From contig JAAYPC010000171.1 of NCBI GenBank assembly GCA_012519985.1, positions 1-64,000 of the forward strand: a stretch of 64,000 nucleotides of DNA, written 5' to 3'. The notes below the pieces were generated by a model. The model was not told the origin of the DNA. It saw only the letters and a list, made by a program, of their open reading frames with translations, and searched no databases. Below are positions 16,481-36,168 of the stretch, one piece after another. Position 1 is the stretch's first letter. Each line of letters starts with the position of its first letter. The DNA is from Fibrobacter sp. (GTDB lineage: Bacteria; Fibrobacterota; Chitinivibrionia; Chitinivibrionales; Chitinispirillaceae). The translations under genes were made by a program, and so were the position numbers.

Positions 16481-16499
16481 TATGGGATGGTTTATCTAT

Positions 16500-17579: not shown

Positions 17580-18368
17580 CTACTTGATCAGTCTTCTTTC
17601 AATTCTGTAAATTGCCGGCCAGACGCTAAATAATGTAAAAACCACGATAAACAGAAAGTCCAGAAATAATACTGGTGAATAATCACCCAGACACAGTGCT
17701 CTGGTTGGTCTTACCACATGGGTCAGGGGAAAGAATTCTGCAATGATTCTCAAGGCTGGTGGAAGATTTTCAATAGGGAATACCACGCCTGAGAAGAAAA
17801 ACATGGGGGAGAGAAACCCGGTGAAATAAAAATTGAAATGGTTGATGTTCTTAACAAAGGTGGTTATCAGAAGTGAAAAAGAGGCAAACATTATACCGGT
17901 AAGAAATCCGATTACCGGCGTAAACAGGCTCCATGGAAGTGGAATAAAACCGAATGCTGCAACCACAATGGTTACCGCAAAAGAAAAAAACAGCCCCTTT
18001 GTTCCTGCCCACAGAATCTCTCCAAGCATCATGTCTTTTACGTTTAAGGGAGCAGCCAGCATTCCATCATATACCCGGTCAAATTCCAATCGGATAAATG
18101 TGCCGTAGGTGAGTTCGAATGCTGAAGTGAACATTGCAGCGGTAATGGGGAGCCCTGTTGCCAGAAAAGTGATATACGGAATCCCTGCCATCTGATCGAT
18201 GTACCTGTTCATACCGAGTCCGATTCCTGCCAGAAAGACCAGTGGTTCAAGAAAGGGGGGCAACCCATTACTTATAAGATTTTTGGTGTAGACCCGGAAA
18301 TGGCGGAACCATACGCTGTAAATTCTATTGAATGTTGATGGATAAAGCCTGTTATTACTGGAGTGCAT
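17580..18368 (-). CDS. ABC-2 type exporter permease (NodJ-like)
   Basis: 262 residues with about six membrane helices and the ABC-2 layout: a cytoplasmic start, LEPLVFLAGIGLG, the amphipathic RVYDGMLAAPL segment and the closing FFPLTHVVRP segment. This matches the NodJ/ABC-2 permease family, which exports oligosaccharides, drugs or lipids. The ATG at 18366-18368 overlaps the ATPase gene by 14 bp, with GGAG 8 nt upstream, so the pair is coupled. The substrate cannot be told. Confidence 0.88.
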   Translation of the reverse strand: MHSSNNRLYPSTFNRIYSVWFRHFRVYTKNLISNGLPPFLEPLVFLAGIGLGMNRYIDQMAGIPYITFLATGLPITAAMFTSAFELTYGTFIRLEFDRVYDGMLAAPLNVKDMMLGEILWAGTKGLFFSFAVTIVVAAFGFIPLPWSLFTPVIGFLTGIMFASFSLLITTFVKNINHFNFYFTGFLSPMFFFSGVVFPIENLPPALRIIAEFFPLTHVVRPTRALCLGDYSPVLFLDFLFIVVFTLFSVWPAIYRIERRLIK

Positions 18369-19287: not shown

Positions 19288-19634
19288 TTTTTTCTCAATT
19301 TTCAGATAATTAATAATTCTGGTTTTAAGGCAAACTAAACCGGAGCAGTCACTTTAAATTAGTTCAAATTACTTTGTAGAGGAAATTCCAACGTAAGGAA
19401 ATTATAATAAAACTCAAGCTGATCCGTTTTCATATATATTTTAATATCTGCTCAATTTTGGCAAACGCAGTTTATAACTGTTTTTGTATTTTGAATAAGC
19501 CCGGGCGAATCAGTAGTCTGAACAATTTAATTTCAGTTTTGGACTTATTAATATCTGTTCGCTGGCAATGTTGGTTTTGGAACAGAAGCAGTATTCAATA
19601 ATAATAAACCAATCCATAAAAATCCGAGGATTAT

Positions 19635-22379
19635 ATGGGAAAAAAAACTAAAATTGTCGGAATTACCCTGGGGGTGATTCTTGTAGTCTTAATTGCATCA
19701 CTGCTGACCTTATGGATAATGTTTCCACCTGAAAAAATAAAAGCGCTTATCATTCCACAGGTGGAAAAAGCCCTGGACAGAAAGGTTACTCTGGAGAAGG
19801 CATCGCTAAGTTTTTTTCCGGTTATGGGAGTTAATCTGGGTGGACTCAAGATTTCCAATACCGAGCGAGAGGGTTTCTCAGATGAGCCTTTCGTACAAGT
19901 GGAAAATCTAATGATCCAGATACCGCTTCTTACGCTGATAAAAAAGCAGCCGGAAATATCGAAGATTCTGATTAAAAAGCCTCAGATTATTCTGGAAATC
20001 GATTCAAGCGGACATTTTAATTACGATGATCTGGCTTTGATACCCAAAGACAAAAAAGCAGACGAGGATACCGTTAAAAAGAGTGAGAGTAAAGGTATGA
20101 TCGCTCTGCCGGTTCCCATCACCCTGAAAGAGTTTACAATTCAGGATGGGGCGTTCACTTATAGAGATAGACGTTCGGGCCAGGAGTTTGTAGTCGGAGA
20201 TATGGATCAGACCGTGAGGTTCTCCATAGACAAAGAACTCAAAGATGTGAATACCTCCGGTGATCTGGTTTTTTCACAGGTCTCTGTAAAAACAAAAGAG
20301 ATTACCAAACCTCTGAGTGATTTGCGGATAAGTCTGAGTCATGATGTGCAGGCAGATCTGATAAGCGGTAAAGCTGATCTGAAGATGGTGCGGTTATCTT
20401 TTCAGAAAGTTTTTCTTAATCTTAACGGTACTGTCAGCAATTTTAATGCTGTCCCGCATCTCGATCTGCAGATCGATTCCGATCCCATAGAGATAAGGGA
20501 TATTCTGGCTGAGATTCCCCGTGAACTGGTACCTGATCTTGCCAGACTGGCAGCATCCGGAACTGCGGAACTTGATCTGAGTATTAAAGGTGCTTTGGAG
20601 AAAAATGCTAAATTTCCGATTCAGGGAAGTTTGACCATCAAGGATGGAATGGTAAAGTATTCTGATCTGCCCAAATCAATAAATAAAATCAATACATCTC
20701 TTAATTTTACTGACAACAGCCTGGATATCAGGAACCTGAGCTTGTTATTTGGCGCCAACCCAATAGAGTTGAAAGGAACCGTGAAGAATTTTGCCAGTCC
20801 GGTGATTGATTTACTTGTAAAAGCGAATGTGGATCTTGGTGATCTCAAACAGATGGCCAGTTTACCTGAGGGCGCATCACTTTCTGGCAAAATAAAAACC
20901 GATATTTCTGCCAAAGGCATGGTTGACCCCTCAGATCCATCGAAACTCGATGTGAAAGGCAGAGCCGATTTGCAGGATGTATCAATCAAATGGCCGCCTC
21001 TGGTAAAACCCGCGGTTATTAATGGATTGTTCACACTGTCTTCAAAAGCAATTGGGCACAATCTGGCTTTGAAGATGGGGAATTCATCGATGAAAATGGA
21101 TGCCTCAATTAACAATTATCTAAGCATGATTATTGTCGATAGCACAAAGAAGGCACCACGGCCATCGATCGATTTTAAAATCACATCACCCTTGCTGAAT
21201 TTTGATGAATTTCTGCCACCTGCTAAAGAAACAGCAGATACTGAAAATAAAGCAGTTGCTAAAACAGATGATAATTCTTCAGGAGGACCTCTTATTGCAC
21301 CGCTTCCTGGCATAGACATGAAAGGGACTATTTCGGCTTCCAAAATAGTCTATAAGAATGTGGAAATGAAGAATATGCAGATGAAGGTTTCGGTGCTCAA
21401 TGATATCGCAGATCTTGACATAAAGACTGGATTTGCCAAAGGTACCATAACTGAAAAGATTCATGCAGATCTGCGCAATACAAAATTGGTAACTATTAGA
21501 AACAATCTGGCTATTTCAGAAGTGGAAATCAATGACCTGCTGGTACGTTTTGGTAATTTTATAAAGCCTACCAATGCTTTGAACAAAGAATTGAGAAATG
21601 TGCAGAATAACCTCTATGGAAAGATCAACCTCAAGAGCGATCTAACTACCACCGGAGGAACGCAGCAGGAGCTCTCAAAGAGTCTCAGAGGCACCATAGA
21701 TGCAAAATTTGCCAATGGAAAGATTTCCAATTCCCTTATTCTTAACAGGATTTCCGGTATCCTGAGTAAATTTATAGATGTCAAAGATATTAACTTCCGC
21801 AACCTCAAGACTACCTTACGTATTGAAGATGAGACGGTTTATTTTGATAATTTCAACCTTCAATCGGATCTGGCAGGTGATTGGGATCTCAGGGGAAATG
21901 TGGGTTTTGATGCAAAACTTGACATGAATATCGATCACAGAATGACCAAAGCTGCTTCGCAAAAAGTCCTTGCCGTTCAAAACACCAGTAAGAGTAAACT
22001 GCAGGGTATGCTGGAGGGAACCAAACTCAGTGCTGCATCAGGATTATTGGATAATGTGGGTATACCTTCTGATGCAGAGGGAAGGATCACCCTTAAAATC
22101 GCCCTTTCCGGTACTGCATCCGATCCCAAACCCACCTTTAGTGGCTTTGGAAAGGGAAGCAGCAGTTCGTCTGCGGCTTCCAAGACGCAGACTCCTAAAG
22201 AGCAGGTGACTCAGCAGGTAAAAAGTGTGATTGAACAGAATAAGGCAACTGTTGAAAAGAAACTCACAGAAGAAAAACAGAAGATAGAGGAGGAGATAAA
22301 GAAGAAAGTACCGGTTACCCCGGATCAGGGTCAAGAATTAAAGAATAAAGCAGCCAACAAACTGAAAAAACTCTTCTAA
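19635..22379 (+). CDS. AsmA-family inter-membrane protein
   Basis: 914 residues. A single N-terminal helix (about residues 7-29) anchors it in the inner membrane. It is followed by the AsmA start (IPQVEKALDRKVTLEKASLSFFP) and a very long beta-rich periplasmic body. A charged low-complexity tail (about 830-905, rich in K, E, Q, S) follows. AsmA-like and TamB proteins are thought to form grooves that move phospholipids between the membranes. GAGG lies 6 nt before the ATG at 19635. It stands alone, bounded by a terminator downstream. Substrate is inference from the family. Confidence 0.88.
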   Translation: MGKKTKIVGITLGVILVVLIASLLTLWIMFPPEKIKALIIPQVEKALDRKVTLEKASLSFFPVMGVNLGGLKISNTEREGFSDEPFVQVENLMIQIPLLTLIKKQPEISKILIKKPQIILEIDSSGHFNYDDLALIPKDKKADEDTVKKSESKGMIALPVPITLKEFTIQDGAFTYRDRRSGQEFVVGDMDQTVRFSIDKELKDVNTSGDLVFSQVSVKTKEITKPLSDLRISLSHDVQADLISGKADLKMVRLSFQKVFLNLNGTVSNFNAVPHLDLQIDSDPIEIRDILAEIPRELVPDLARLAASGTAELDLSIKGALEKNAKFPIQGSLTIKDGMVKYSDLPKSINKINTSLNFTDNSLDIRNLSLLFGANPIELKGTVKNFASPVIDLLVKANVDLGDLKQMASLPEGASLSGKIKTDISAKGMVDPSDPSKLDVKGRADLQDVSIKWPPLVKPAVINGLFTLSSKAIGHNLALKMGNSSMKMDASINNYLSMIIVDSTKKAPRPSIDFKITSPLLNFDEFLPPAKETADTENKAVAKTDDNSSGGPLIAPLPGIDMKGTISASKIVYKNVEMKNMQMKVSVLNDIADLDIKTGFAKGTITEKIHADLRNTKLVTIRNNLAISEVEINDLLVRFGNFIKPTNALNKELRNVQNNLYGKINLKSDLTTTGGTQQELSKSLRGTIDAKFANGKISNSLILNRISGILSKFIDVKDINFRNLKTTLRIEDETVYFDNFNLQSDLAGDWDLRGNVGFDAKLDMNIDHRMTKAASQKVLAVQNTSKSKLQGMLEGTKLSAASGLLDNVGIPSDAEGRITLKIALSGTASDPKPTFSGFGKGSSSSSAASKTQTPKEQVTQQVKSVIEQNKATVEKKLTEEKQKIEEEIKKKVPVTPDQGQELKNKAANKLKKLF

Positions 22380-22394
22380 ATCTTGTATTGTCTA

Positions 22395-22456
22395 CCCCCC
22401 CAAATCCCCCGAAGAGGGACTTTAAGATCCCTTAATGTAATGGGTGATTAGGGGGC
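22395..22456. repeat. C/G-rich palindromic intergenic element, copy A
   Basis: Just after the AsmA gene is a run of C tracts, then GAGGGACTTTAAGATCCC, then GGGTGATTAGGGGGC. The C-rich left end can pair with the G-rich right end. A related element is at 31526-31583 and shares GGGTGATT(T)AGGGGGC. Elements of this C-tract/G-tract type are dispersed in many genomes as short palindromic repeats. Confidence 0.5.
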
Positions 22457-22472
22457 TGTCCTTTCCGGCCTT

Positions 22473-22505
22473 AAGCCCCTTTCTTTGAGGAATAGGGGCT
22501 TTTTT
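22473..22505 (+). terminator. Rho-independent terminator after the AsmA gene
   Basis: AAGCCCCT (22473-22480) pairs perfectly with AGGGGCTT (22494-22501) across a 13-nt loop, followed by TTTT. It lies about 90 bp after the AsmA stop, so it may end that transcript. Confidence 0.75.
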
Positions 22506-22668
22506 CATATAAATCAAATCCTCTTACTTCTATACTCTGAACCTCCAAAACGAATATCGAATATCGAAGTAAAAAAGATAAGAACCGTTTAACCTCTTGC
22601 TCTGAGATGGCAACTTTTTTGCGCTTTAGAATGGAAAAATGATATAAAAAGGTGGGTTATTTTTCTAT

Positions 22669-23070
22669 ATGCAGATTAATGTTACCACACCTGCTCTCCT
22701 TTTCCCGGCGATTTCACTTTTACTTCTGGCTTATACCAGTCGATTCCTGGCACTGGCTAATCTTATAAGGGATCTTCAATCCGAACATCGCAAAAGTAGA
22801 GATACACTGATATTAGGACAGATCAAAAATCTTCATATCCGCTTGAAGATAATACGTAACATGCAGGCTTTGGGTGCTTTCAGTTTTTTTCTCTGTGTTT
22901 TTTCCATGTTTTCTTTATTATTGGAAAGGATTACTCTTGGGGAGGTACTTCTGGGAATAAGCCTGCTTTTGTTAATGGGTTCTTTAGCACTTTCAATCTG
23001 GGAAATACAGATATCTGTTGATGCACTGGAGCTTCAGATGAGAAAAATCGAACATCTAAAAAAGGATTGA
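22669..23070 (+). CDS. DUF2721 membrane protein
   Basis: 133 residues with three membrane helices (about residues 5-25, 62-84 and 92-112). The N-terminal sequence TPALLFPAISLLLLAYTSRFLALANLIRDL is the DUF2721 signature, and the family length fits. Function unknown. It starts at ATG 22669; the AAGGTGG about 14 nt upstream is not ideally spaced. It converges with the BNR-repeat gene. The 163-bp gap before it contains a repeated GAATATC motif but no clear promoter. Confidence 0.8.
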   Translation: MQINVTTPALLFPAISLLLLAYTSRFLALANLIRDLQSEHRKSRDTLILGQIKNLHIRLKIIRNMQALGAFSFFLCVFSMFSLLLERITLGEVLLGISLLLLMGSLALSIWEIQISVDALELQMRKIEHLKKD

Positions 23071-23111
23071 TATAACTACAGTATATAAGCTCTTCTGCAA
23101 ATCTTCCCGGA

Positions 23112-24731
23112 TTACCGCAATACCACCTTTTCACAGAAAACGGCATTAATATCTGGAAAAGCCTTATCTTGTGTAATTTTGATCAAATACACCCCTGTTG
23201 AGAGATTTCTCTGAGAAATCCTGCACTGTTTGCCGTTGAGGAATCTCTTTTTCAGAATCAGTTTGCCATTGAAAGAAAAAACTGATGCTGTTAAGGAAAT
23301 GTTCCGGTAAGCGTTTTTAAAATCACCTGTGATAATTATTCCGGAATGGTTTTTCTTTACATAGAATTTACCTGAAGAATTTCGGGTACGTTTCTGAACT
23401 TCTGTTTCGATGGAGAACCTGTAGACACGTAATGTACTTGCCGGGGGATAAGTACCATCAGGACGGGATTTATCCTGGTTGATGGGCATGGTTTCCCACC
23501 TCAGATAGTATTCTCCATCACGAATACGATTGACCTGTAAACCCGGAAATGTGGATTCGACCTCATATAATTCTCTCATTGCCTGTGGAGATTCATAAAC
23601 AATATCGCTTTGAGGTTTGAGGGTTTCTTCATTGAGTATCCATCGTTTCATCTTCTGGTTTGGGTATACATAGTCCTGTATAAGTTCTCCGTTTTCATCG
23701 ATGGAAAGCAGTGTTGCTGCAATGTCATGCGACAACGAGCCTTCACGATCAAGATTCCATTTGAAATTGGTCCAGTTACTGGTTTGATAGATTTTCCACT
23801 TTCCGTTCTCCCATCGGGTGTTGAAAATCTGACTTATATTATTGTCGTCATAACGATGATAGGTAATTACTGCACGGTTTAGTCTGTCCCAACTGATCCA
23901 GTAATCCATGTTTATCAGGCCTCGTCCGCTTGAGATGGGGTCGACCACTACATCAGGGGTGCTTGTTTTAACAGGTATGGAAATGCTTTTTCCGGACATT
24001 GTTTGCCAGGTGATAAGATCACTGCTTTTCATGTGTGATATGTGAAAGTTGGTATTGGCGACCGGTGTTTCCCGCCACATCCAGACAATATGGAAAAAGT
24101 TATCAGGTCCCAGCACAGGGGAGATATGGTAAGCGCTAACCTTGTTTTCTCCGTCAAATAATCCTTTACTGGTTAAGCGAGTCCATTTTTTTGTTTTGGT
24201 ATCATAGCTATTGCAGATGGTAATTCCATTGCCGCTTCCACCGGTACGGTATTGGAAGAAGAGTTGATTGTTGGGGCCTTCGATAAATTCAGGATAAGTA
24301 ATGCTGTTCTCAAGAGTCCCGATCATCCCTGGGGATTCAAAGGAATCGGTGTTCCAGGGTTTTTTCGAACGAAAGTAGATAAGATTAACATTATGCATAT
24401 TTCCGCTTATATGGATATAACCGGAGTCATCTATGGCCATTGCTATATAGTTGTGAGAATCCCATCCGGTAGTGGTCGGAAGCTCGGTATATTTCCAGGA
24501 AGTACTATCGGGTGATCGGGAAGCAACGACCATTCTACGATTAGTGTTATAAAAGGCTACGCATTGCAGCTTTTCGGTGGTTCTAATGGCGAAGTTTACC
24601 GGGTGTCCTGCCCAGACCTGTGCGATATCCAGTTTTTCCATCAGGATGATATTGGCAGAATCGACTGGGCATGGTAAGAAAAACAATATAAACAGAGCTG
24701 AGAGAAGTGTGTAAACAGAAGATTTGAGCAT
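23112..24731 (-). CDS. Secreted BNR_4-type beta-propeller protein with C-terminal sorting-like domain
   Basis: 539 residues. A signal peptide (residues 1-25) is followed by a propeller with repeated aromatic Asp-box-like motifs (SPDSTSWKY, DDSGYIHISGN, GPDNFFHIVW). This resembles the BNR_4 family found in sialidase-like and polysaccharide-lyase proteins. The last 80 residues (about 460-539) are a beta domain ending in LSTGVYLIKITQD, close to the type IX secretion C-terminal sorting pattern. A role in extracellular polysaccharide binding or cleavage is likely but the substrate is unknown. It starts at ATG 24729-24731 with AAGGAAA upstream. Confidence 0.7.
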   Translation of the reverse strand: MLKSSVYTLLSALFILFFLPCPVDSANIILMEKLDIAQVWAGHPVNFAIRTTEKLQCVAFYNTNRRMVVASRSPDSTSWKYTELPTTTGWDSHNYIAMAIDDSGYIHISGNMHNVNLIYFRSKKPWNTDSFESPGMIGTLENSITYPEFIEGPNNQLFFQYRTGGSGNGITICNSYDTKTKKWTRLTSKGLFDGENKVSAYHISPVLGPDNFFHIVWMWRETPVANTNFHISHMKSSDLITWQTMSGKSISIPVKTSTPDVVVDPISSGRGLINMDYWISWDRLNRAVITYHRYDDNNISQIFNTRWENGKWKIYQTSNWTNFKWNLDREGSLSHDIAATLLSIDENGELIQDYVYPNQKMKRWILNEETLKPQSDIVYESPQAMRELYEVESTFPGLQVNRIRDGEYYLRWETMPINQDKSRPDGTYPPASTLRVYRFSIETEVQKRTRNSSGKFYVKKNHSGIIITGDFKNAYRNISLTASVFSFNGKLILKKRFLNGKQCRISQRNLSTGVYLIKITQDKAFPDINAVFCEKVVLR

Positions 24732-24820
24732 ATTAATTTCCTTTTTTTAGTGTCTCTGGCAAAATAAATTATGATTTCAAAAGCGAACTGGACTACATTA
24801 AAAAAATGTTGAAAATATTA

Positions 24821-24849
24821 TTGACCTGATTGTTTTATTATGATATGAT
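24821..24849 (+). promoter_or_regulatory. Strong sigma-70 promoter for the SAP/Cys gene
   Basis: TTGACC (24821-24826) and TATGAT (24844-24849) are separated by exactly 17 bp and lie 36 bp upstream of the start codon at 24886. Both boxes are one base from consensus, among the best in this window. Confidence 0.7.
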
Positions 24850-24885
24850 GTTTATTCAAAAGAAAATTCAAGGAAAGGAATTGTG

Positions 24886-25068
24886 ATGACACACAGTAAA
24901 ATTGTATCTATCGCCAAGAGCATGGGTATCAGTAACGCTTCAAAACTCAAGAGTGCAGACCTTATACGTACAATTCAGACTAAAGAAGGCAATTTTGCCT
25001 GCTTTGGTACAGGAAAAGTTGAATGTGACCAGCATCAGTGCTGCTGGAGAGAAAATTGCATAAAATAA
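24886..25068 (+). CDS. Small SAP/Rho-N-like protein with cysteine cluster
   Basis: 60 residues. The first 32 look like a SAP or Rho-N-terminal helical module (IAKSMGISNASKLKSADLIRTIQ). The end carries C39, C47, C52, C53 and C58, with the CxWREdC pattern of a recurring family of short proteins. Four of the cysteines could hold a metal. It may bind nucleic acid, by analogy only. ATG 24886 has AGGA 6 nt before it; a GTG one codon earlier is possible. A strong promoter and a terminator bracket it, so it is a single-gene unit. Confidence 0.75.
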   Translation: MTHSKIVSIAKSMGISNASKLKSADLIRTIQTKEGNFACFGTGKVECDQHQCCWRENCIK

Positions 25069-25074
25069 GGCGGA

Positions 25075-25138
25075 CAGAGTGGGAATAAGACCATTCACTA
25101 TCTATTAAAAACGGTTTTAATTCCCACTCTGGTTTTTT
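25075..25138 (+). terminator. Rho-independent terminator after the SAP/Cys gene
   Basis: CAGAGTGGGAAT (25075-25086) pairs perfectly with ATTCCCACTCTG (25120-25131) across a 33-nt loop, followed by TTTTTT (25133-25138). It begins 7 bp after the stop codon. The loop itself may fold further. Confidence 0.8.
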
Positions 25139-25217
25139 CTAAAGTCCAACCTGACTGTTCGATAACGAATCAGAAATCCCTTCCAGCGTAATCACATCAT
25201 TGTTGTCGCTGCTGATT

Positions 25218-27173
25218 TTACTTCAGCCTGGTTTCAAAACCATTGGAAAGAAGTTTGGTTTTGGAGTCCCGTTCATTGCTAAGTCTTACATTTGAAATCA
25301 TGTATTTCCCGGAGGTATTGCATCCGGAGGCTTTAAACGCAATTCTTCTGACACCATTAAGATCCAGACGATTATTATGAATAGCATCTTCTGGCTGAAA
25401 ATGTATGAATTTTGTGAATTCCCGGAATGGAAGAATGATATCGTTCCAGCCTCGTAATGCACCTACATTGGCTACGAAGTGCTCATTTTCACTGTCTGCT
25501 ATCTGTACAGTTATTCCCTGAAACTCCTTGTCTGTATACAAATGAAACCGGATTCCCCAGTGTTTTGTCCAGTCCCGTTTCAACGAGTCGAAATCAGTGC
25601 TGTCGTAAGGACAATAGATGTCACACCAATCAAGAAGAGAATAGGAAAAAGACATACACTTTGAAATATCTTCAGGTGCATTTTCTGGTGCATCAATTAA
25701 TTCAAAACTGCATTCGCTTTTCGGCCCTTTTGAGGAGAACCAGCTAAGCTTTTCACTATCCTGAAAATCATGAAGCAAAAGTTCCGGTTCTGTGCTCTGG
25801 AAGTTGTTCCAGTATTTTTCAAATTCTGAAGTGTCAGAGAGGTTCTTAACGATGCATATATTGTCCAGATATAAAGTCACCGGAACAGTATCCTTGCTTT
25901 CTGAATTCCTTTTTGCACAACAGAAGCGGAGTTCGTGAATTGAATTCCAGGCGATTGGAGATTCAATTTCCTGTTTTAAGTTTTCATCCCAGAATAATCC
26001 GATATCGCAAAAGTGACACAGAGGTATTGTGAACAGTTTCCACACTTCAGTCAATTCACCATACTGTTCTATTAAAACCCGCGATTGTACTTTCCTGTCT
26101 TTCTGGTGATCAAGAAAACCTATCTGAATGCTGGCAGTCTTCAATCCGCATTTTGCCCAGAACACTAACCCGCCTGTTTTCCGATAATCCCTGAGGTCTA
26201 CTGGTTTATTGTTGTCAGTTGCTATGGTAACCGCTGAATAATCATTATCATCCAGATAACATGCCAGAATTTTTCTATCGGAGTACATGGCATTTTTCTG
26301 AAGAACACAGGCAGTGTTGCCACCGTAAACGTAAGTAAAACTGTTTTCTTCAAGTCTGCCGTCAAAAATGTTCAGAACTATCTCATCGGTATCTCTAAGC
26401 GATGAGCGTGGGGGATAGATCGATTCTATGAGTTCACTCCAGGATAATAATTCTGGCTGGATAGTGGTGGTGTCAAAAACATTGGGTTCTATACAAATAT
26501 CATCAAGGAAAACTGTAAAGGCCTGGTTTTCATCCTTTTTTATCTCCAATCTTACTTCTGCAATCCTGTTCCAATCGATATCACAGGGAATCTCTGCTCT
26601 TTTATTGGCATCCCAGAAAACCCCTTTGTCTGAAAAGTGAAACAGGGGGATCGAAACAAGTTGCCATTCTGTGGTGAGTTTCGTGTATCTGCTCAAGGGC
26701 AATTTTACTGCAACCTTTTCTCTGGATGAACTGGATTGGTCCAATAACGCTACCCAGGCTTTTTCGCCACCTTTTTTCCCTTTAATCCAGAATTTTAAAG
26801 CCCCGTTATTTCTGTATGGCCTCAGGTCAACACTATTGCCCAGGCTGATTGCACCGCCGGAGAAATCAGCAGCATTCAGAGTCATCTGTACCGAAAGTAT
26901 CCCATTTTTTGAATCAGTATCAATATCGTTAATCTTTGATTTGCTGGGGTAAGCATAGAGGAAACCACCTGGAGCTAACTTTTCGTTAAAGAAAAAAACA
27001 GTACTCAAAGCATTGGCAGACCCACTAATCTCAATTCCACCTGAGCCGGGTTGGATTTTAATCTCAGAAGAGGTGGTCAGAGATTTTAAACAGACATTTG
27101 AGCAGTGCAGAAAAAGAAAAAAGGTTACTGATACAAGTAAGTTTCTTTTGCTGCTAAAATGGATTTTTCCCAC
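25218..27173 (-). CDS. Envelope protein with three CBM/jelly-roll-like modules
   Basis: 651 residues. A hydrophobic N-terminus (about residues 12-27, ending near Cys24 and Cys28) suggests export or lipid anchoring. Three similar beta modules follow, ending with related strands: VFLDDICIEP (about 220), VTLYLDNICIVKN (about 430) and a third with ISNVRLSNE near the C-terminus. Units repeat WQLVSIPLFHF...DKGVFWD and WKLFTIPLCHF...DIGLFWD. This resembles CBM11/CIA30 jelly rolls that bind carbohydrate. The GTG at 27171-27173 is favoured, with AGGAG 9 nt upstream. No catalytic domain is visible, so the role is likely binding. Confidence 0.6.
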   Translation of the reverse strand: MGKIHFSSKRNLLVSVTFFLFLHCSNVCLKSLTTSSEIKIQPGSGGIEISGSANALSTVFFFNEKLAPGGFLYAYPSKSKINDIDTDSKNGILSVQMTLNAADFSGGAISLGNSVDLRPYRNNGALKFWIKGKKGGEKAWVALLDQSSSSREKVAVKLPLSRYTKLTTEWQLVSIPLFHFSDKGVFWDANKRAEIPCDIDWNRIAEVRLEIKKDENQAFTVFLDDICIEPNVFDTTTIQPELLSWSELIESIYPPRSSLRDTDEIVLNIFDGRLEENSFTYVYGGNTACVLQKNAMYSDRKILACYLDDNDYSAVTIATDNNKPVDLRDYRKTGGLVFWAKCGLKTASIQIGFLDHQKDRKVQSRVLIEQYGELTEVWKLFTIPLCHFCDIGLFWDENLKQEIESPIAWNSIHELRFCCAKRNSESKDTVPVTLYLDNICIVKNLSDTSEFEKYWNNFQSTEPELLLHDFQDSEKLSWFSSKGPKSECSFELIDAPENAPEDISKCMSFSYSLLDWCDIYCPYDSTDFDSLKRDWTKHWGIRFHLYTDKEFQGITVQIADSENEHFVANVGALRGWNDIILPFREFTKFIHFQPEDAIHNNRLDLNGVRRIAFKASGCNTSGKYMISNVRLSNERDSKTKLLSNGFETRLK

Positions 27174-27415
27174 AAACAAAATCTCCTCAATGTATCTGCT
27201 ATTTCAAGAAACCTTGCTCATACCGGAAATAGTGAAGCTGTTTCCTAAATTATACTCAGATTGCTATGATTTATCAAATATACATTCCAGTGCACTTTAA
27301 CAAGTATTCTGAATAAAGGTGCACTTCTGCATACAGGCTTATTTTTTGCTCTTCCTAAGTAAATTAATTTGGGTTGTTACCCATTACAGTAAAATTATCA
27401 TACTGGAGCAATCCT

Positions 27416-28360
27416 ATGAATCATTTCAGCCCATTCGGATTTATCAGTGGAAACCAGCATTGGCCTGCTCTGCCTTTTCATCAATGGAAAAGCACCTACA
27501 TGACTCTTCATCTGTGGACTCAGATTGTTGGAAAAATCCGTCTGGTTCAGACCCCTTGGACTAATCACTCCTGGCATACCGCCCTTTATGTTACTTCCAG
27601 AGGATTGACCACTTCACCTGTCCCTTATGGTGCCAGGACTTTTCAAATCGATTTCGATCTGATTGATCATGAGCTTTGTATTAGCACCAGTGATGGACAA
27701 AGCAGAATGATGATACTTTCCATGCGTCCTGTGGCTCAGTTTTATGATGAAATGTTTACAAAACTGGATGAACTGGATCTTTCTTTGAAAATCAACACCA
27801 TGCCCAATGAGCTGATCGCACCGATTCCTCTGGATAAGGATTATGAGCATGCCGTTTACGATGCAGAGCATGCGAACCGTTTTTTCCACGCGCTGGTTCA
27901 GGCCGACAGAGTAATGAAAAAATTCCGATCGCGTTTTATCGGCAAATGCAGTCCGGTACACTTTTTCTGGGGTAGTTTCGATCTGGCAGTAAGCCGTTTT
28001 TCCGGCAGAACCGCCCCGGAGCACCCTGGCGGTGTCCCTCATCTTCCGGACTGGGTCACCAGGGAAGCTTATTCGCATGAAGTATGCAGTTGCGGTTTCT
28101 GGCCAGGAAGTGATTTGAGGCCTCAGGCTGTCTTCTACTCCTATATCTATCCTGAACCTTCAGGTTATTCTGCTGCGAAGATAGATCCTGATGGAGCACA
28201 GTATGACTCGCAACTAAAAGAATTTATCCTTCCATACGATATTGTCAGAGAATCGGCTTCACCCGATGAGACTCTGCTTACTTTTCTGCAAAGCAGTTAT
28301 GAAGTCGCTGCAAACCTGGGAGATTGGAACAGGGCAAAACTGGAGAAAGAGTTCTGGTAA
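27416..28360 (+). CDS. DUF5996 family protein
   Basis: 314 residues, matching DUF5996 throughout: LWTQIVGKIRL near the start, LYVTSRGLTTSPVPYG, SRFIGKCSPVHFFWGSFDLAVSRFSGR in the middle and LPDWVTREAYSHEV. No signal peptide and no catalytic residue is known to me. Function unknown. ATG 27416 has GGAG 7 nt upstream; the TTG 14 codons before lacks one. The 242-bp gap before it contains a hairpin-like pair GTGCACTTT (27290) and AAAGGTGCAC (27315) of unclear meaning. Confidence 0.85.
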   Translation: MNHFSPFGFISGNQHWPALPFHQWKSTYMTLHLWTQIVGKIRLVQTPWTNHSWHTALYVTSRGLTTSPVPYGARTFQIDFDLIDHELCISTSDGQSRMMILSMRPVAQFYDEMFTKLDELDLSLKINTMPNELIAPIPLDKDYEHAVYDAEHANRFFHALVQADRVMKKFRSRFIGKCSPVHFFWGSFDLAVSRFSGRTAPEHPGGVPHLPDWVTREAYSHEVCSCGFWPGSDLRPQAVFYSYIYPEPSGYSAAKIDPDGAQYDSQLKEFILPYDIVRESASPDETLLTFLQSSYEVAANLGDWNRAKLEKEFW

Positions 28361-28430
28361 AACATTGCGACTACTCAGGTATCTTGTGGGAAAAAATCGT
28401 AGTAATATCAAATCGGAAAAAAAGGAACTA

Positions 28431-28517
28431 ATGTCAAAACAATATCTAATCAGAAGTAATCTGAGAAAAATATTTAAACGAAGAATCATCGATTGTAATT
28501 TTAACTTATGCTACTGA
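28431..28517 (+). CDS. Possible 28-residue peptide ahead of the hydrolase
   Basis: ATG 28431 with AAGGAA ideally spaced upstream opens a 28-codon frame that ends at 28517, 10 bp before the hydrolase start. The peptide is basic and Ile-rich ([18 protein letters not shown] near its start). It resembles no family I know. It may be a leader peptide or a chance frame. Confidence 0.25.
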
Positions 28518-28527
28518 GGGGGAGATA

Positions 28528-29352
28528 ATGAGCAGAATAAAAATGGAAGATGGGACCAGTATCTATTATAAGGACTGGGGAAGTGGGCAGCCAGTTGTGT
28601 TTAGTCATGGTTGGCCTTTAAGCGCTGATAGCTGGGAATCGCAGATGCTTTTTCTGGCATCCAACGGTTATCGCTGTATCGCTCATGATCGCCGGGGTTT
28701 TGGCCGTTCCAGTCAGCCCTGGGATGGAAACAACATGGACACCTATGCAGACGATCTCGCAACGCTCATCGAGAGCCTTGATCTTAGAGATTGTGCCCTG
28801 TTTGGTTTTTCTACCGGAGGGGGTGAAGTGGCCCGCTATATTGGCCGCCATGGCAGTAAACGGGTAAGGAAAGTCGCTTTAATCAATGCGGTTCCCCCTC
28901 TTTTGGCCAGGAATGAAAACAATCCTGACGGTATACCGATGGAAGAATTGGATCAGTTAAGGGCAAGTGCAATAGCTAATCGCTCACAATTTTATAGAGA
29001 TCTCGCCAGTGGTCCTTTTTTCGGCTTTAATCGACCAGGGGCAAAAGTGTCCCAAGGGCTTATCGATTGGTTTTTCCTTCAGGGCATGATGAGTGGAAGT
29101 AAAAATGCGTTGGATTGTATCAGGGCTTTCTCTGAGACCGATTTTACCGACGATCTGAAGAAATTTGATGTACCCACTCTTATCATCCATGGTGATGACG
29201 ATCAGATCGTCCCTATAGGCAGTTCATCGATGAAGTCTTCGAAGATAATCGAGAAAGCAACCTTTAAAATCTATAAGGGCGCACCTCATGGTTTAACCGA
29301 TACCCATAAGGAACAACTCAACAACGATCTGCTGGCATTTCTTCGGAATTAG
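28528..29352 (+). CDS. Alpha/beta hydrolase, chloroperoxidase/perhydrolase-like
   Basis: 274 residues, close to cofactor-free haloperoxidases and arylesterases. The oxyanion region is HGWPLSAD (27-34), the nucleophile is Ser95 in GFSTGGGE, the acid is in HGDDDQIVP and the histidine in GAPHGLT. These enzymes hydrolyse esters and can make peracids; the natural substrate is not known. No signal peptide, so cytoplasmic. GGAG lies just before ATG 28528. It is followed by the 43-bp repeat array in its likely 3' untranslated region. Confidence 0.9.
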
Positions 29353-29431
29353 GTGCAGGTTGACCCGGTTACTCTATGGGATCCGTATAACACCCGAACC
29401 AGCACAGAGCTTCGCTCAATGCTCTTTTCAG

Positions 29432-29661
29432 TCAGGTTAGTACGAGTTGAGACGTCTTGAGTCACGCTGACCATTCAGGTTAGTGCGAGTTGAGACGTCT
29501 TGAGTCACACTGACCAATCAGGTTAATGCGAGTTGAGACGTCTTGAGTTACACTGACCAATCAGGTTAATGCGAGTTGAGACGTCTTGAGCCACACTAAC
29601 CAGTCAGGTTATTCGAGTTGAGACTTTTGGAGTCACACTAACCTTTTAGGTCAGTGCAAGG
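29432..29661 (+). repeat. Tandem array of five 43-bp hairpin repeats
   Basis: Units start at 29432, 29475, 29518, 29561 and 29604; the first four are exactly 43 bp, the fifth has lost one base, and a partial sixth runs to about 29661. Each unit is a 38-nt imperfect palindrome plus a constant 5-nt linker (AATCA-like). Arms in unit 2 read GGTTAGTGCGAGTTGAGAC and GTCTTGAGTCACACTGACC; as plus-strand RNA about 17 of 19 positions can pair if G-U is allowed. Since 43 is not a multiple of three, it is not a protein repeat. The rest of the 456-bp gap (29353-29808) has a small TCACACC/GGTGTGA hairpin at 29755-29772 and no gene. Confidence 0.9.
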
Positions 29662-29808
29662 AGGAGGCAGTCGGGGGTAGTCTTACTGCCCTCTCTGGCG
29701 TCAGCGTTTTTTGCACACCTGCCTGGTCCTGCAATAGAATTGGCAGAAAAATCCTCACACCGCCAGGTGTGAAATCATGCATAAGCTGTATACAGGCTAC
29801 TGCGCAGC

Positions 29809-31074
29809 TTACGGAAGCAGATCCTGGAACTGAATTAACAGGTCTTCGAGCGTATCTCTTCTTCTGATAAGTATATCATTGCCCGATTGATCTATCAGGA
29901 CCTCTGCGGGTCTGAGACGGCAATTGTAATTGGAGCTCATGACCATGCCATACGCACCTGCATCCAGAACACCGATAACATCGTTTTCTTTTATTGATGG
30001 AAGAGTACGGTCTTTTGCCAGGATATCACCAGTTTCGCAGATATTTCCCACGATAGTGACTTTCTGCATTTCTGAATCGGTTGCAGGTACATCTCTGTAG
30101 ATCTCGATATCATGATGCGAGCCATAAAAGGCAGGGCGGATAAGGACATTGAATCCGATGTCGGTTCCTGCGTATAGAGTTTGGGCATTTTGCTTTAAGG
30201 CATGGACTCTGCCAAGAAGTACGCCGCATTCGGCAACTATGAACCGACCAGGTTCTATTTTGATCGTAAGTTTTTTTCCGGTTTTCCTGACGAAATCATC
30301 GATAAGTTTTTGCAGCTCTGAGCCCAGCGTTTTGAGGTCGAGTGGTTTTTCCTGAGAGTCTTTATGGTAGGGGATTCCAAATCCGCCACCAAAATCTACA
30401 AACTGCAGCTCCGGAAAGTTCTGTGCGTAGGAAAGAAGAAACGATGCAGCTTCGATATAGGATTCAGGTGTCATGAACAGGGAACCGATATGCTGATTCA
30501 GCCCTGTGAGATGAAGGTTAAATTCTTTCAGTATGCTTTTGAGTTCGGCGGTGAATTGGGGATCGACTCCGAATTTGGTCTTTTGCCCACCGGTTATCAC
30601 TTTTTCATGATGTCCTGCACCGATTCCAGGATTGATTCTGACCGCTACTTTACCGCCTCTATTGAGCTGTCCGATTCTTCTGAGTTGTGACACAGAGTCT
30701 GCGCTTATCAGAACACCGGCATCGATCGCAAAGCGAAGTTCCTCATCAGAGACATTGTTGCAGACAAGAAGAATTTCTTCGGGTGTAAACCCTGCTTTCA
30801 GTTCCAGAAAAAGTTCACCTGCAGACATGGCATCCACGGTAAGACCCTCACTGCGAATGATCCTGAGCAGGCTGAGGTTGGTGTTGGCTTTTGCTGAATA
30901 GTTTACTTTGAAAGCCGGGTAGGAAATCAGGGAGGTGAGTGCTTTGCAGCGGCTTCTAAGTATGGATTCGTTGTAAACATAAAGAGGTGTGCCATATTTG
31001 GAGGCCAGTGCAAGAGGATCGGTGTTTCCGAAGAAATTGGTTTTTTCTGTCCAGATATTATGGATATAGTTCAT
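29809..31074 (-). CDS. lysA: Diaminopimelate decarboxylase
   Basis: 421 residues, a fold-III PLP enzyme that decarboxylates meso-diaminopimelate to lysine. The PLP lysine is in KVNYSAKANTN, the HIGSLF and GGGFGIPY segments bind the cofactor phosphate, and GNICETGD carries the cross-subunit catalytic Cys. ATG 31072-31074 has GAGGGAG 8 nt upstream; a longer TTG form is unlikely. It stands alone: the array of repeats is downstream, and the 609-bp gap (31075-31683) upstream holds a palindromic element and a short frame. Confidence 0.95.
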   Translation of the reverse strand: MNYIHNIWTEKTNFFGNTDPLALASKYGTPLYVYNESILRSRCKALTSLISYPAFKVNYSAKANTNLSLLRIIRSEGLTVDAMSAGELFLELKAGFTPEEILLVCNNVSDEELRFAIDAGVLISADSVSQLRRIGQLNRGGKVAVRINPGIGAGHHEKVITGGQKTKFGVDPQFTAELKSILKEFNLHLTGLNQHIGSLFMTPESYIEAASFLLSYAQNFPELQFVDFGGGFGIPYHKDSQEKPLDLKTLGSELQKLIDDFVRKTGKKLTIKIEPGRFIVAECGVLLGRVHALKQNAQTLYAGTDIGFNVLIRPAFYGSHHDIEIYRDVPATDSEMQKVTIVGNICETGDILAKDRTLPSIKENDVIGVLDAGAYGMVMSSNYNCRLRPAEVLIDQSGNDILIRRRDTLEDLLIQFQDLLP

Positions 31075-31417
31075 GAGTGGTTCTCCCTCTTTTGATTTAC
31101 GTGATTCTGTTTTGAATTTATTGAATATAGTGAAAAACTGGTGAAGGCTCAAACCCTAATAAGGGAGAAAAAGCGGGATTATTGCCTGATTTGGAATTTA
31201 TTAGGCACTGTCCGCCATCCTCCTTTAACATTGGCCATTTCTCTTAGAATCGGAAAATGGTGACGAAAATTTGTAAACTTCAATGGTTATTCACTAAGCG
31301 ACCTGTGACTCCTAAGCTTAATCTGAAAATGGTAAGCAGAACCTGCCATTGTCGAGAGAGTGCTGCTACCTACCCGGGATCATTTGAGCGCACAAAGATC
31401 AATATAAAGGAAAATGT

Positions 31418-31588
31418 GTGAACTCGCTTAAAGTAATAATCCCAAATTTTCCTCCAGGTGCCAGTGATCCGGACACCCTGGTTGAACGCTCACAGCGAAT
31501 TCATACATTTTTCTTTACCATTGTGAAATTCCCCCTTAATCTCCCACCCCCTTTGGGTGATTTAGGGGGCCGGGGGGGATTTTGCTAA
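31418..31588 (+). pseudogene. Short frame possibly truncated by palindromic element
   Basis: A GTG at 31418, with AAGGA 6 nt upstream, opens a 56-codon frame. The first 35 residues look protein-like (start MNSLKVIIPNFPPGASDP), then the frame runs into the C/G-rich palindrome and ends at 31588 with a Pro/Gly-rich tail. This could be the start of a gene broken by the element, or a chance frame. I do not recognise it. Confidence 0.25.
31526..31583. repeat. C/G-rich palindromic intergenic element, copy B
   Basis: Outer arms AAATTCCCCC and GGGGGGATTT, inner CCCCCTTAATC against GATTTAGGGGG, and a CACCC/GGGTG centre form a nested inverted repeat of about 58 bp. It shares GGGTGATTTAGGGGGC with the copy at 22395-22456. 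It has no transposase and sits 100 bp from the stop of the exporter gene. Confidence 0.6.
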
Positions 31589-31683
31589 TAAACACCTGTG
31601 AATTTCTAAACCTCATCTATACTCTTTGTCTAATTTTTCCAAAACCCTATGGGATGATACTGATTTTGAGTTTTGTGATTGAA

Positions 31684-33816
31684 TCACCCGGTTTTCTCAA
31701 ACTGCAATCTGAAGAACTCATAATAGAGTCCTTTAAGCTCCATCAGGGTATCATGATCACCAAACTCAGCTATCTGGCCTTTGTTAAGTACCAGTATTTT
31801 TTCTGCACTTCTGATAGTAGAGAGCCGGTGTGCGATTACAATCGAAGTTCGTCCTTTGATGAGCTGAGAGATGGCATCCTGAATCAGAGCTTCGGTTTCG
31901 GTATCAATGTTGGAAGTGGCTTCATCGAGGATAAGAATCGAGGGATTAAAATAGAGTGCCCGTGTAAAGGCCAGAAGCTGCCTTTCGCCTGCAGAGAAGG
32001 TTACTCCTCTTTCCATGACTTTCTGATCTGCTCCATCAGGAAGGCGCTGAAGGAATTTGCTGGCATGGGTGATGGTGGTGACCTGCTGAAATCTGTGTTC
32101 ATCCCAGCCTTTTCCCATTATGATATTTTCCCTGATAGTGCGTGAGAAAAGGAAGACATCCTGCATAACGGTGGCGATATTAGAGCGCAATTGACCCGGA
32201 GGAATTTCTGTGATATCTGTTCCATCAATCAGTATTCTTCCTTTACTTATCGGGTATAAACCAGAGATGAGATTTATTATGGTGCTTTTTCCGGAGCCGG
32301 TTTCGCCAACTATAGCCATAGTGCTTCGTGCCGGTACCGAGAAAGACACTCCTTTTAAAACCCACTCTCCTGGAGTGTAGCAGAACCAGACATCATCAAA
32401 AACGATCTCTCCGTGCAATGAGTTTTCAGGTAAGAGAAGATCTGGTTTACTGTGCAGAACCGGTTCTTTGCGGCAGGGGGCATTGAGTACGGTCAGGATC
32501 TTTTCACCTGCAGCGGTTGCACTCTGAAGGATATCGAATTTTTCTGCGAGATCACCTATGGGTTCGAAGAAACTGTTTATATAGGCCAGAAACATCACTA
32601 TCAGACCGTAGGAGATTGTACCTTCAAGAAAAAAAGTGGTTCCAAAGTAGATTACCAGACCTATGGTGAACCATTTGAAAAAATCGATCAGCGGACGAAA
32701 AATCGCATAGATGATCACCTGACGGAGGTTTGCCTGATAGACCAGGCTGTTGATTAATTTGAATTTGTTGAATTGACGAAGCTCCTGTACGAATACCTGG
32801 ATTATCCGGATGTTGGAGATGTTTTCATTGAGAAACGAATTCAGATCTGCTATTCTGGTTCTGATGACCCGGTAGGCCTGACGTGCCTTGATTCTGAAAA
32901 GAAGCATTACTGTAAAGAGAGCCGGAAAAGAGATACTGACCACCAGTGCCAGATGGTGATCTGTGAAGAACATGATAATGGTTATACCAGTGAGAATGAG
33001 AACATCCTGAACCAGGGTAACAAGCACGGTAGAGAACAGTTCATTAAGGGATTCGATATCGTTGGTAATTCGGTTGACCAGTTTTCCTATGGGATTTTTG
33101 TCAAAAAAGGATAACTCCAGAGAGGTTATATGAACGAAAAGGTCTGTTCGCAGGTCTCTCATCGCGTACTGTGAAAGTTTCATAAGAGTAATTATCTGGA
33201 AATATGAGGCTGCGAACTGCAAAATGAAGAGTCCCAGAATGAAAAGTACCATAAAACCGGTCTGACGGATATCATGGATTCGAAGGAGTGCGGTTTCTGA
33301 GACGGTGAAAAAAGAGCTGCTGTTATCCTTAAGTAAGTATCGGTTATTGGGGAAGGCACGTAATATGCCTTTTGACAGAGCTTCGCTGATTTTTATTTCC
33401 AGTTTATTGTCAAACGCGGGTGATTCGATCAGGGTGAATGTGCTTTCGGAAAGGGTACCTTCACTTGTAAGTTTTCTGATTTCATCTGCGGAAAGTCCTG
33501 AGAGGTCGTTTTTAAAGGCAAAGAGGGTGTCATCTTTGAGGACCATGCTTTTTGATAAAAGTTTTTCAAAATCCCTGCTTTGTTCCACATTTGTTTTGTC
33601 ATGTCTGACCAGGTAACCGGATTTGACGATGAATCGGTCGATTGTAATTCTGGAAAGAAAGGGTACTGTAAGGGTAGCGGTAGAGATTATAGAGACAAAA
33701 AGAAAGGCCAGATAAAGATGGCCGCGATATCTCAGAATGTATTTAAAAAGCAGCTTGACTACATCTTTATTGAAAAAGGAATCTGGAGAGTTCTCTTCCG
33801 GATAATAGTTACTCAT
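31684..33816 (-). CDS. Heterodimeric ABC exporter half, catalytic-Glu subunit with extracytoplasmic insert
   Basis: 710 residues: transmembrane domain then ATPase. Walker A GETGSGKST, Walker B ILILDEATSNID with the catalytic Glu, but a degenerate signature FSAGE. Known heterodimers (TM287/288, BmrCD) split this way, so it pairs with the 586-residue gene upstream. Between helices 1 and 2 there is an insert of about 115 residues (about 68-182), hydrophilic and mostly helical, far longer than the short loop normal in exporters. Its start ATG overlaps the partner's stop by 4 bp. Substrate unknown; drugs or lipids are usual. Confidence 0.92.
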   Translation of the reverse strand: MSNYYPEENSPDSFFNKDVVKLLFKYILRYRGHLYLAFLFVSIISTATLTVPFLSRITIDRFIVKSGYLVRHDKTNVEQSRDFEKLLSKSMVLKDDTLFAFKNDLSGLSADEIRKLTSEGTLSESTFTLIESPAFDNKLEIKISEALSKGILRAFPNNRYLLKDNSSSFFTVSETALLRIHDIRQTGFMVLFILGLFILQFAASYFQIITLMKLSQYAMRDLRTDLFVHITSLELSFFDKNPIGKLVNRITNDIESLNELFSTVLVTLVQDVLILTGITIIMFFTDHHLALVVSISFPALFTVMLLFRIKARQAYRVIRTRIADLNSFLNENISNIRIIQVFVQELRQFNKFKLINSLVYQANLRQVIIYAIFRPLIDFFKWFTIGLVIYFGTTFFLEGTISYGLIVMFLAYINSFFEPIGDLAEKFDILQSATAAGEKILTVLNAPCRKEPVLHSKPDLLLPENSLHGEIVFDDVWFCYTPGEWVLKGVSFSVPARSTMAIVGETGSGKSTIINLISGLYPISKGRILIDGTDITEIPPGQLRSNIATVMQDVFLFSRTIRENIIMGKGWDEHRFQQVTTITHASKFLQRLPDGADQKVMERGVTFSAGERQLLAFTRALYFNPSILILDEATSNIDTETEALIQDAISQLIKGRTSIVIAHRLSTIRSAEKILVLNKGQIAEFGDHDTLMELKGLYYEFFRLQFEKTG

Positions 33817-35573
33817 GATACCGGTTCACCTGTTTTTTGCAGTTCATAGAGTCGGGCGTAGAAACCGCCTGCAGAGAGAAGCTGTTCATGGGATCCCTGT
33901 TCGCTTATTTTTCCATCGGCAAGCACTATTATCTTGTCGCAATCTTTTACTGTAGAGATTCTGTGAGCAATAATCAGTGATGTTTTTTTACGGATCTCAT
34001 GAGTTAAAGCAGTACGGATTTCCCGCTCTGTGGCAGAGTCAACGGCTGAGAGTGCATCATCCAGAATAAGAATGGGGGAGTCCAGAAGAAGTGCTCTGGC
34101 GATGGCCAGTCTCTGTTTCTGACCTCCGGACAGGGTGATACCCCGTTCGCCGATTCTGGTGGAGTAGGCCTGGGAGAAGTTAAGGATATCTTTATGGATA
34201 GATGCTTTTCTGGCTGCGTTTTCGATAGCTTCCTGTGCGATATTGTCATTTAAACCGAAGGAAATGTTTTCGCGTATACTGTCGGAGAAGAGCGAGGAGT
34301 CCTGGGGGACAAATGCTATTGAGGAGCGCAAGAGTGAAAGGGGGATGTCGTTTATATCGTGACCATCGATAGTGATCTGGTTATGGCCTACGGGGTAAAG
34401 ATGAAAAAGAAGAGAGACCAGAGTGGTTTTTCCGGAGCCCGCTTTACCGATTATACCCAGGGAACTTCCTGCAGGAATCACCAGGTTGATATCAGAGAGA
34501 ACTGGCGGCGACTGTTCATTGTAGCGGAAAGAAAGCGAATTGAATTGAATGTTTCCTTTTAGAGGGGAGAAGTTTTCCCCGGAGTTTTTGATCGCTATTT
34601 GTGGTTTTGTGTTCATCAGTTCAAGTACTCTTCTGGTGGATGCCAGACCTCGTTGAAACATGTTAAAGACCCAGCCGGTAGCGATCATGGGCCAGATCAG
34701 AAGGTTTATATAGAATGTAAAAGAGACGAACTGCCCGATGGAGATCTGCTGCAGGATCACCTGTTTACCGCCAAAATAGATAAGAAATCCTAACGCCAGT
34801 GATCCCAGAAGAGTGATTGAGGGGAAAAGAAGACCCCAGATTTTTACCAGTGAGATATTGGATGAGACGTAGGTATCACAGAGTTGTCGAAACCGGTTGA
34901 TTTCGTGGCGTTCCTGGTGGAAACTTTTTACCAGACGAATCCCGGAGATGGATTCTTGGGCGTGAGATGAGATGGCATCGAAGGATTGTTGGACCCGGAT
35001 ATGGCGGTTTTGAATCATTTTGCCGGTTCTGATCATCAGAAAAATTATTGCCGGCAGGGGAATGATTGTTAACAGGGTCAGTTTTACGCTGATAGTAAAC
35101 ATGAACAAAAGGGACATGGTGCTTAAAAAGAGAGCATCTACCAGGCCGATCAGTGCCATTCCGCAGGCCATGCGGATGGAGTTAAGGTCATTGATGAAGA
35201 GGGCCATCAGATCGCCTGTTTTTGATTTATTGAAATAGGAGGGGGATAATTGTTCCAGATGCTCGAACATATCCTCACGAAGTTGGGTTTCGATCTTGCG
35301 TGAGGGGCGTATGATGAAGAGGCGCCAGAGGAATCGCAAAACTATGGTACTGGCTGCCAGAGCGATTATGATTAAAGATTTTTTCAGGATTATGGAGGTA
35401 GAGAAAGAGGTGTTACTCAGGGTGTCCAGTGTTTGCTGGATAATTTTGGGGATAATTAGCTGAATAGTGTCCACAGCGATTAATACCAGCATACCCAAGG
35501 TGATAGAGGTGGTATGCTTTCGAAGATAACTGAGAAGAAATTTTGTAGCCTGGGAATCTAGGTTTAGCTTCAT
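33813..35573 (-). CDS. Heterodimeric ABC exporter half, canonical-signature subunit
   Basis: 586 residues: six-helix domain then ATPase. Walker A GKAGSGKTT (about residue 375), canonical signature LSGGQKQR (about 479), but Walker B ILILDDALSAVD carries Asp where the catalytic Glu belongs. This is the complementary half to the following gene, so only one of the two ATP sites of the dimer is expected to be hydrolytic. It starts at ATG 35571-35573 and is translationally coupled to its partner (ATGA). It is divergent from rpiB across 151 bp. Confidence 0.93.
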   Translation of the reverse strand: MKLNLDSQATKFLLSYLRKHTTSITLGMLVLIAVDTIQLIIPKIIQQTLDTLSNTSFSTSIILKKSLIIIALAASTIVLRFLWRLFIIRPSRKIETQLREDMFEHLEQLSPSYFNKSKTGDLMALFINDLNSIRMACGMALIGLVDALFLSTMSLLFMFTISVKLTLLTIIPLPAIIFLMIRTGKMIQNRHIRVQQSFDAISSHAQESISGIRLVKSFHQERHEINRFRQLCDTYVSSNISLVKIWGLLFPSITLLGSLALGFLIYFGGKQVILQQISIGQFVSFTFYINLLIWPMIATGWVFNMFQRGLASTRRVLELMNTKPQIAIKNSGENFSPLKGNIQFNSLSFRYNEQSPPVLSDINLVIPAGSSLGIIGKAGSGKTTLVSLLFHLYPVGHNQITIDGHDINDIPLSLLRSSIAFVPQDSSLFSDSIRENISFGLNDNIAQEAIENAARKASIHKDILNFSQAYSTRIGERGITLSGGQKQRLAIARALLLDSPILILDDALSAVDSATEREIRTALTHEIRKKTSLIIAHRISTVKDCDKIIVLADGKISEQGSHEQLLSAGGFYARLYELQKTGEPVS

Positions 35574-35724
35574 GGGCAGAAAAATACTTTCTGCTGATGG
35601 AGCAGGATAAGCTATTGAATCGATTAGAGAAAAGGAAATTTTTCTGGCATGTTTCTTGGGGAAAAATTCTTTTGGGGCATATCAGTAAAGGGTAGAGGCT
35701 GGAAGGAAAAAACGGGATGAAAAA

Positions 35725-36168
35725 ATGATGATAGGAATAGCAGTGGATCATGGTGGTTTTCATCTGAAGACTCCTCTTATTACTGCTTTGCGGGAATGGG
35801 GACATGAGGTAAGGGATTTTGGGGCTTACCATTTTGAAGCCGATGATGATTATCCGGATTTTGTTATAAAAGCATCTGCTGCGCTTGCCAAAGGGGAGGT
35901 AGAGCGGGGAATAGCGATTTGTGGAAGTGGAATTGGTGCAAGTGTTTGTGCCAATAAAATCAGGGGAATAAGAGCGGGGTTAGTTTCTGATGTGTTTTCT
36001 GCTCATCAGGGAGTTGAGGATGACAATATGAACATGATCTGTCTTGGGGCAAGGGTAATTGGTTATGAATTGGCAATAGAGTTGGTGGAGGTGTTTCTGA
36101 AGGCCAGGTTCAGCAGTTGTGAACGGCATTTGAGGAGATTGGCAAAACTTCAAGCCCTGGAAGAGTAG
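35725..36168 (+). CDS. rpiB: Ribose-5-phosphate isomerase B
   Basis: 147 residues of the RpiB/LacAB fold, interconverting ribose 5-phosphate and ribulose 5-phosphate. DHGGFHLK near the start binds substrate, and AICGSGIGASVCANK carries C66, the position of the catalytic Cys of E. coli RpiB. EDDNMNMICLGARVIG is the other family signature. It starts at ATG 35725, with a second ATG directly after. It stands alone with a terminator-like hairpin after it. Confidence 0.95.
   Translation: MMIGIAVDHGGFHLKTPLITALREWGHEVRDFGAYHFEADDDYPDFVIKASAALAKGEVERGIAICGSGIGASVCANKIRGIRAGLVSDVFSAHQGVEDDNMNMICLGARVIGYELAIELVEVFLKARFSSCERHLRRLAKLQALEE

Follow-up and report, generated by a model that had tools for sequence, protein, structure and literature searches.

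A tandem array of 43-bp imperfect palindromes in a Fibrobacter sp. genome, one of many non-coding arrays at 21, 42 or 43 bp

What kind of element is a row of five imperfect palindromes set between two genes that converge on it, and is it held together as RNA or as DNA? The array lies in a 64,000-nt stretch of DNA (the window) from a host genome of 4.74 Mb in 367 contigs (G000), where it sits in the gap 29353–29808 between a hydrolase gene and a convergent lysA gene. TRF places it at 29432–29657 (period 43, 5.3 copies, 88% matches), and the 22-base left half of the unit, with up to three mismatches, occurs four times against 0.00 in shuffles; both confirm the tandem 43-bp array proposed by the first-pass annotation. 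The locus is laid out as follows.

28528..29352, + strand: alpha/beta hydrolase gene (domain match, Abhydrolase_1), upstream of the array
29432..29474, + strand: unit 1, TCA plus the 38-nt imperfect palindrome (29435–29472) (TRF, sequence and fold)
29444..29458, + strand: first copy of the 15-base core GAGTTGAGACGTCTT; further copies start at 29487, 29530 and 29573
29475..29517, + strand: unit 2, the best hairpin (sequence and fold)
29518..29560, + strand: unit 3, with stem position 6 broken from G-C to A-C (sequence and alignment)
29561..29603, + strand: unit 4, whose opposite strand folds better (sequence and fold)
29604..29645, + strand: unit 5, 42 bp, with a degenerate core GAGTTGAGACTTTTGGAG (sequence and fold)
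29646..29670, + strand: degenerate half unit at the right edge, after unit 5 (read from the sequence; the TRF extent runs to 29657)
29753..29774, - strand: terminator-like hairpin of the lysA transcript, ahead of the array in the lysA reading direction
29809..31152, - strand: convergent diaminopimelate decarboxylase-type gene, lysA (domain match, Orn_Arg_deC_N / Orn_DAP_Arg_deC)

Each unit is formed by TCA, a 38-nt imperfect palindrome that opens with GGTT and closes with ACC, and two variable bases. Successive lengths of 43, 43, 43, 43 and 42 bp bear out an exact period in four of the five units, and the earlier statement that this is not a protein repeat also holds: a period indivisible by 3 rules out a coding repeat, and the array is without a long open frame. 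The linker between units had been described as a constant 5 nt and in fact varies (ATTCA, AATCA, AATCA, AGTCA, then TTTTA). The 38-nt palindrome itself stands, unit 5 being degenerate; the accompanying figure of about 17 of 19 paired positions is limited to unit 2, the counts for units 1–4 being 16, 17, 16 and 15 (on the sequence, G-U allowed). Elsewhere in the window, the lysA terminator region (29746–29802) has a weak copy at 63581–63611 and, on contig C82 (6409–6461), a 53-bp copy of 81% identity (E 8e-5); an in-frame tandem acidic-peptide repeat (EQPVIADDEQPAVVVD...) occupies 62553–62860 inside a 529-aa protein (61938–63527).

The genome holds one further locus of the family, two units with degenerate edges on contig C136 (3469–3574, 81% identity). 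A covariance model of the unit recovers the window and C136 loci only, and there are no dispersed single units. Homology between the two loci is confined to the array, their flanks being unshared. Within it the core GAGTTGAGACGTCTT is identical in units 1–4 and in both C136 units, and the resulting run of invariant columns has a permutation p of 0.0006, a statistic drawn from six units that are not independent samples, given that the loci are related by descent and units homogenise within an array. Neither C136 unit folds as a hairpin, nor does either fold better than its shuffles. Between the loci it thus appears to be a sequence that persisted and not a structure, and since the core is unchanged at C136 while the hairpin is lost, comparison of the two sites favours recognition at the level of DNA.

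Outside this genome, the covariance model returned no match from 167 other genomes of the phylum, same-family relatives included, so the pairing that the first-pass annotation looked to find conserved in relatives is not there; of the two observations it had named as refuting an RNA (no conserved pairing in relatives and no transcript through the array), this is the first. Blastn did not find the unit in 60 relatives, and searches of viral, phage and plasmid collections did not find it either. Scanning the contigs of 84,980 species for the pattern gave three single matches against a chance estimate of about 15 (about 17.5 specified bases), and the stretches read around these matches contain no array. 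For the two closest lysA genes (66–67% identity), the retrieved downstream DNA is other sequence, with no array.

The reading that we prefer, at a probability of about 0.5, is that of a lineage-private palindromic minisatellite, BOX/REP-like in character, which evolves at the DNA level and whose core is probably bound by a protein. A 43-bp imperfect dyad with its core would have grown by tandem duplication in the gap between the convergent genes, perhaps as the hairpin-prone unit underwent replication slippage or unequal exchange, and would also have been seeded at a second genomic place. Recognition by a putative sequence-specific DNA-binding protein, whose sites would be spaced by about four helical turns, may have retained the core; the array could be near-neutral, or a weak spacer or barrier between two gene ends, and any RNA hairpins made by transcription from the hydrolase side would be a by-product. 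It counts against this explanation that unit 2 makes a good hairpin on one strand and that core conservation comes from loci sharing descent.

The alternative that survives best, though we judge it unlikely, is an array of RNA hairpins: the hydrolase transcript would enter the array and the hairpins would protect or end the mRNA, with RNA pairing under selection, in the manner of the 3′ UTR stabiliser or attenuator role proposed for REPs. Placement agrees with this: on the hydrolase strand, the array begins 80 bases past that gene's stop (29352), just behind it as already noted, and no canonical terminator was found between the two. The region as a whole folds above its shuffles (z −6.1); on the + strand unit 2 reaches −18 kcal/mol (z about −3.8 to −5) and unit 1 folds moderately better than shuffles, and a second palindromic family in the genome (family B, described below) shows covariation. 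Against it, units 3–5 gain little or nothing over shuffles on that strand, with units 4 and 5 and both C136 units at shuffle level; unit 5 carries a deletion and core changes, and unit 4 forms its more stable fold on the opposite strand. The absence of the unit from the 167 phylum genomes also argues against an RNA role, and Rfam gave no match above the gathering score anywhere in the window.

Compensation had been the main argument for RNA. Base changes between units were thought to be partly compensatory, with stem position 4 (U-G to U-A) as the example, but an alignment of six units (window units 1–4 and the two from C136) contains no pair changed on both sides, and the change at position 4 is one-sided. 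Five stem pairs vary on one side and five deviate solely via unpaired cells; about 13% of stem cells are unpaired, position 6 among them in units 3 and 4 (G-C to A-C), and shuffled partners score equally well. With no double-sided changes and weak folding in most units, selection for an RNA hairpin is not shown in the window array. Three options had been offered at the outset, an RNA array, a protein-binding array and an amplified palindrome. The RNA array, argued from compensation, loses that ground; the better fit is the amplified palindrome, with a core that is sequence-specific.

Movement of a REP/BIME-like element by a REP-associated tyrosine transposase (RAYT) is, in our assessment, improbable. 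In its favour, a RAYT-like Y1 transposase occurs in the genome in at least eight close copies, and one such gene (a weak NF047646 match) has the C136 array upstream of it; long inverted repeats found in the vicinity of family B arrays also turn up close to some RAYT copies. However, the DNA common to the copies begins about 80–90 bases ahead of the gene, and on C136 this repeat homology starts at ~4040 whereas the array ends at ~3600. The array thus falls about 440 bp outside the left end of the repeat, and the RAYT element is rejected as its carrier. Nor is the unit present at other RAYT copies in the genome or dispersed singly, and GTAG is absent at either stem end in every unit (the unit starts TCAGGTTA). 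Given the gap of about 440 bp and the absence of the unit at other copies, the association is probably fortuitous and at most reflects a common neighbourhood. The transposase family (328 aa) is itself amplified, on contigs C69, C51, C327, C87, C336, C35, C39, C292, C277 and C136, with copies 71–90% identical over the aligned part and several at contig ends. A MITE-like element whose inverted ends measure about 85–115 bp is dispersed in the genome, in some copies near RAYT-like genes; it was seen at L134 (15299–15412 and 16082–16165), L062 (4246–4512), L144 (5243–5608), L122 (15399–15646), L055 (17515–17742) and other sites.

Less probable again is an operator-like array, by which one regulator would control the flanking genes at both loci. 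The sequence-conserved core at two loci and the multiple sites at regular 43-bp spacing speak for it; the window array, however, is downstream of both neighbours, and so is no ordinary promoter operator for either, and the two loci have no common gene function. A replication origin or partition-type site we set aside as highly improbable: in the window GC skew is negative at 0–16 kb and strongly positive at 32–52 kb, with genes tending to face away from the middle, which is suggestive only. DnaA-box-like sites form no cluster and, at 11 against 7 expected by chance, show no clear excess; genes for replication or partition were not seen nearby, and the array occurs at two loci and is not conserved in relatives. 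The skew shift and diverging genes at 16000–36000 of the window make a nearby replication origin possible but unproven.

Among known systems the array stands near REP and BOX elements and is a formal member of neither, since tests for the GTAG and CGTC tags, for flanking of RAYT genes and for shared end modules all came out negative. Pneumococcal BOX elements have the structure boxA-(boxB)n-boxC, with a middle module of variable number, and the likeness lies in a short hairpin-forming module that is tandem and intergenic, as well as in the long inverted end repeats that enclose at least one family B array, that on C59 (PMC3049150). Here the unit number differs by locus within one genome, five in the window and two at C136. 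Unlike BOX, whose defined ends boxA and boxC are common to the copies, the window family has just two loci that share no flanks, a unit of exactly 43 bp and no visible sequence kinship. REP, BIME and REPIN elements are likewise short imperfect extragenic palindromes, comparable to the window array in its convergent gap; tandem-order clusters of them are known, and RAYT-type transposases occur in this genome (PMC3733652, PMC3116915). In contrast to them, the window units run head-to-tail and not as inverted pairs, and occupy two loci and not tens to thousands. Copies of GTAG REPs flank RAYT genes, whereas here units lie near a single RAYT copy, beyond the boundary of its repeat. CGTC REPs carry an unpaired CGTC at one end, a stem of 8–9 bp, a loop of 4–5 nt and a CCA-like tail (PMC3733652). 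The window unit differs in that CGTC sits mid-dyad and the stem has about 15–17 pairs.

MIRU/VNTR-type intergenic minisatellites are repeated in tandem, have the potential to vary in copy number and end in degenerate units, all of which applies to the intergenic window array; it departs from them in its strong dyad symmetry and in a period common to unrelated families. Integron attC arrays, too, consist of imperfect palindromes able to fold on one strand, as the window units might, but no GTTRRRY/RYYYAAC core pair can be read in the latter and no cassettes lie between them.

The window array is not the only palindromic array of 42/43 bp in its genome; it has counterparts there that are alike in unit length and dyad form and mostly different in sequence. 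A TRF survey of 1.19 Mb (25% of the genome; periods 15–110 bp, outside long open frames) gave 30 non-coding arrays, and in 23 of these the period is 21, 42 or 43 exactly; if all periods from 15 to 60 were used evenly, an idealised null, the binomial tail would be about 7e-22. Open frames across 21- and 42-bp arrays carry little meaning, since a stop-free unit remains stop-free when repeated. A further 43-bp case, on C7, is found under an 86-bp row in the TRF list, and its unit (GGCAGTGTG...GAGTCACACTGTCC) is weakly like that of the window (69% identity, E 6.5). Palindromy exceeds that of shuffled units (p 0.01 or less) in the window array and those of C8, C59, C74, C54 and C69, the last of which may be coding. 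Three of them form family B (CATAGTAC...GTACTATG), with about nine loci in this genome and none in other genomes of the phylum.

C8 5169–5597 (L064): family B array
C59 15668–16054 (L134): family B array
C74 866–994 (L149): family B array
C233, C310, C331, C327, C73 and C82: further family B loci

Family B units make strong 36-nt hairpins on both strands (z down to −10). In six pairs, at least one unit has changes on both sides (14 such cells), the covariation score being reached by 7 of 500 shuffles and the double changes by 33 of 500. Family B therefore covaries modestly, and the idea of a hairpin array is not empty in general. This covariation is no proof of RNA function, since template switching within hairpins can yield the same double-sided changes, as one study describes (PMC8794818). 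The arrays on C8 and C59 are duplicates of a whole array: the 587 bp that they share at 91% take in the degenerate edges and part of the flank. The C59 array lies between inverted repeats of 85–115 bp that are dispersed in the genome.

A relative from another genus of the family (G005) has, within 100 kb, a 21-bp array of 22 copies, a palindromic 42-bp array (9.4 copies) and a palindromic 43-bp array (4 copies), all differing in sequence from those of the host genome; samples of 70–160 kb from five further relatives contain no such arrays. The 21-bp tandem arrays are non-palindromic and fall into several families, often with an A-tract (CAAAAACG...) every two helical turns. In the host genome they were seen at L063 (1–190) and L127 (12795–13049), apparently one family in opposite orientation, and at L095 (33–315), L109 (19494–19652), L148 (8573–8704), L072 (19176–19379), L079 (13790–14065) and L101 (1–64); that of the relative is at L185 (5253–5711). 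Two related 42-bp arrays with a TCGTACGACGATACGAG core, L129 (4793–5036) and L132 (3261–3553), are likewise in opposite orientation, and each runs into a contig end.

A single palindromic minisatellite, which is how we read the window array, is ordinary, and the more interesting point is the common period of unrelated families. Tentatively, and against what we regard as rather long odds, a dedicated process of the lineage might make arrays from modules of about two helical turns, either direct at 21 bp or, at 42/43 bp, made of two inverted halves, with the sequence free to vary by family and species and the length measured by a putative enzyme or bound protein; the window array would be one product. 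The possible importance lies in the many non-coding arrays at 21, 42 or 43 bp in one genome, among them unrelated palindromic families, and in the separate versions, different in sequence, that a relative of another genus carries. That length is fixed while sequence is free would suggest a ruler, physical or enzymatic (for example helical phase, the size of the hairpin, a nucleoid protein or a transposase), and such arrays offer a concrete test system for the de novo origin of REP-/BOX-like palindromes.
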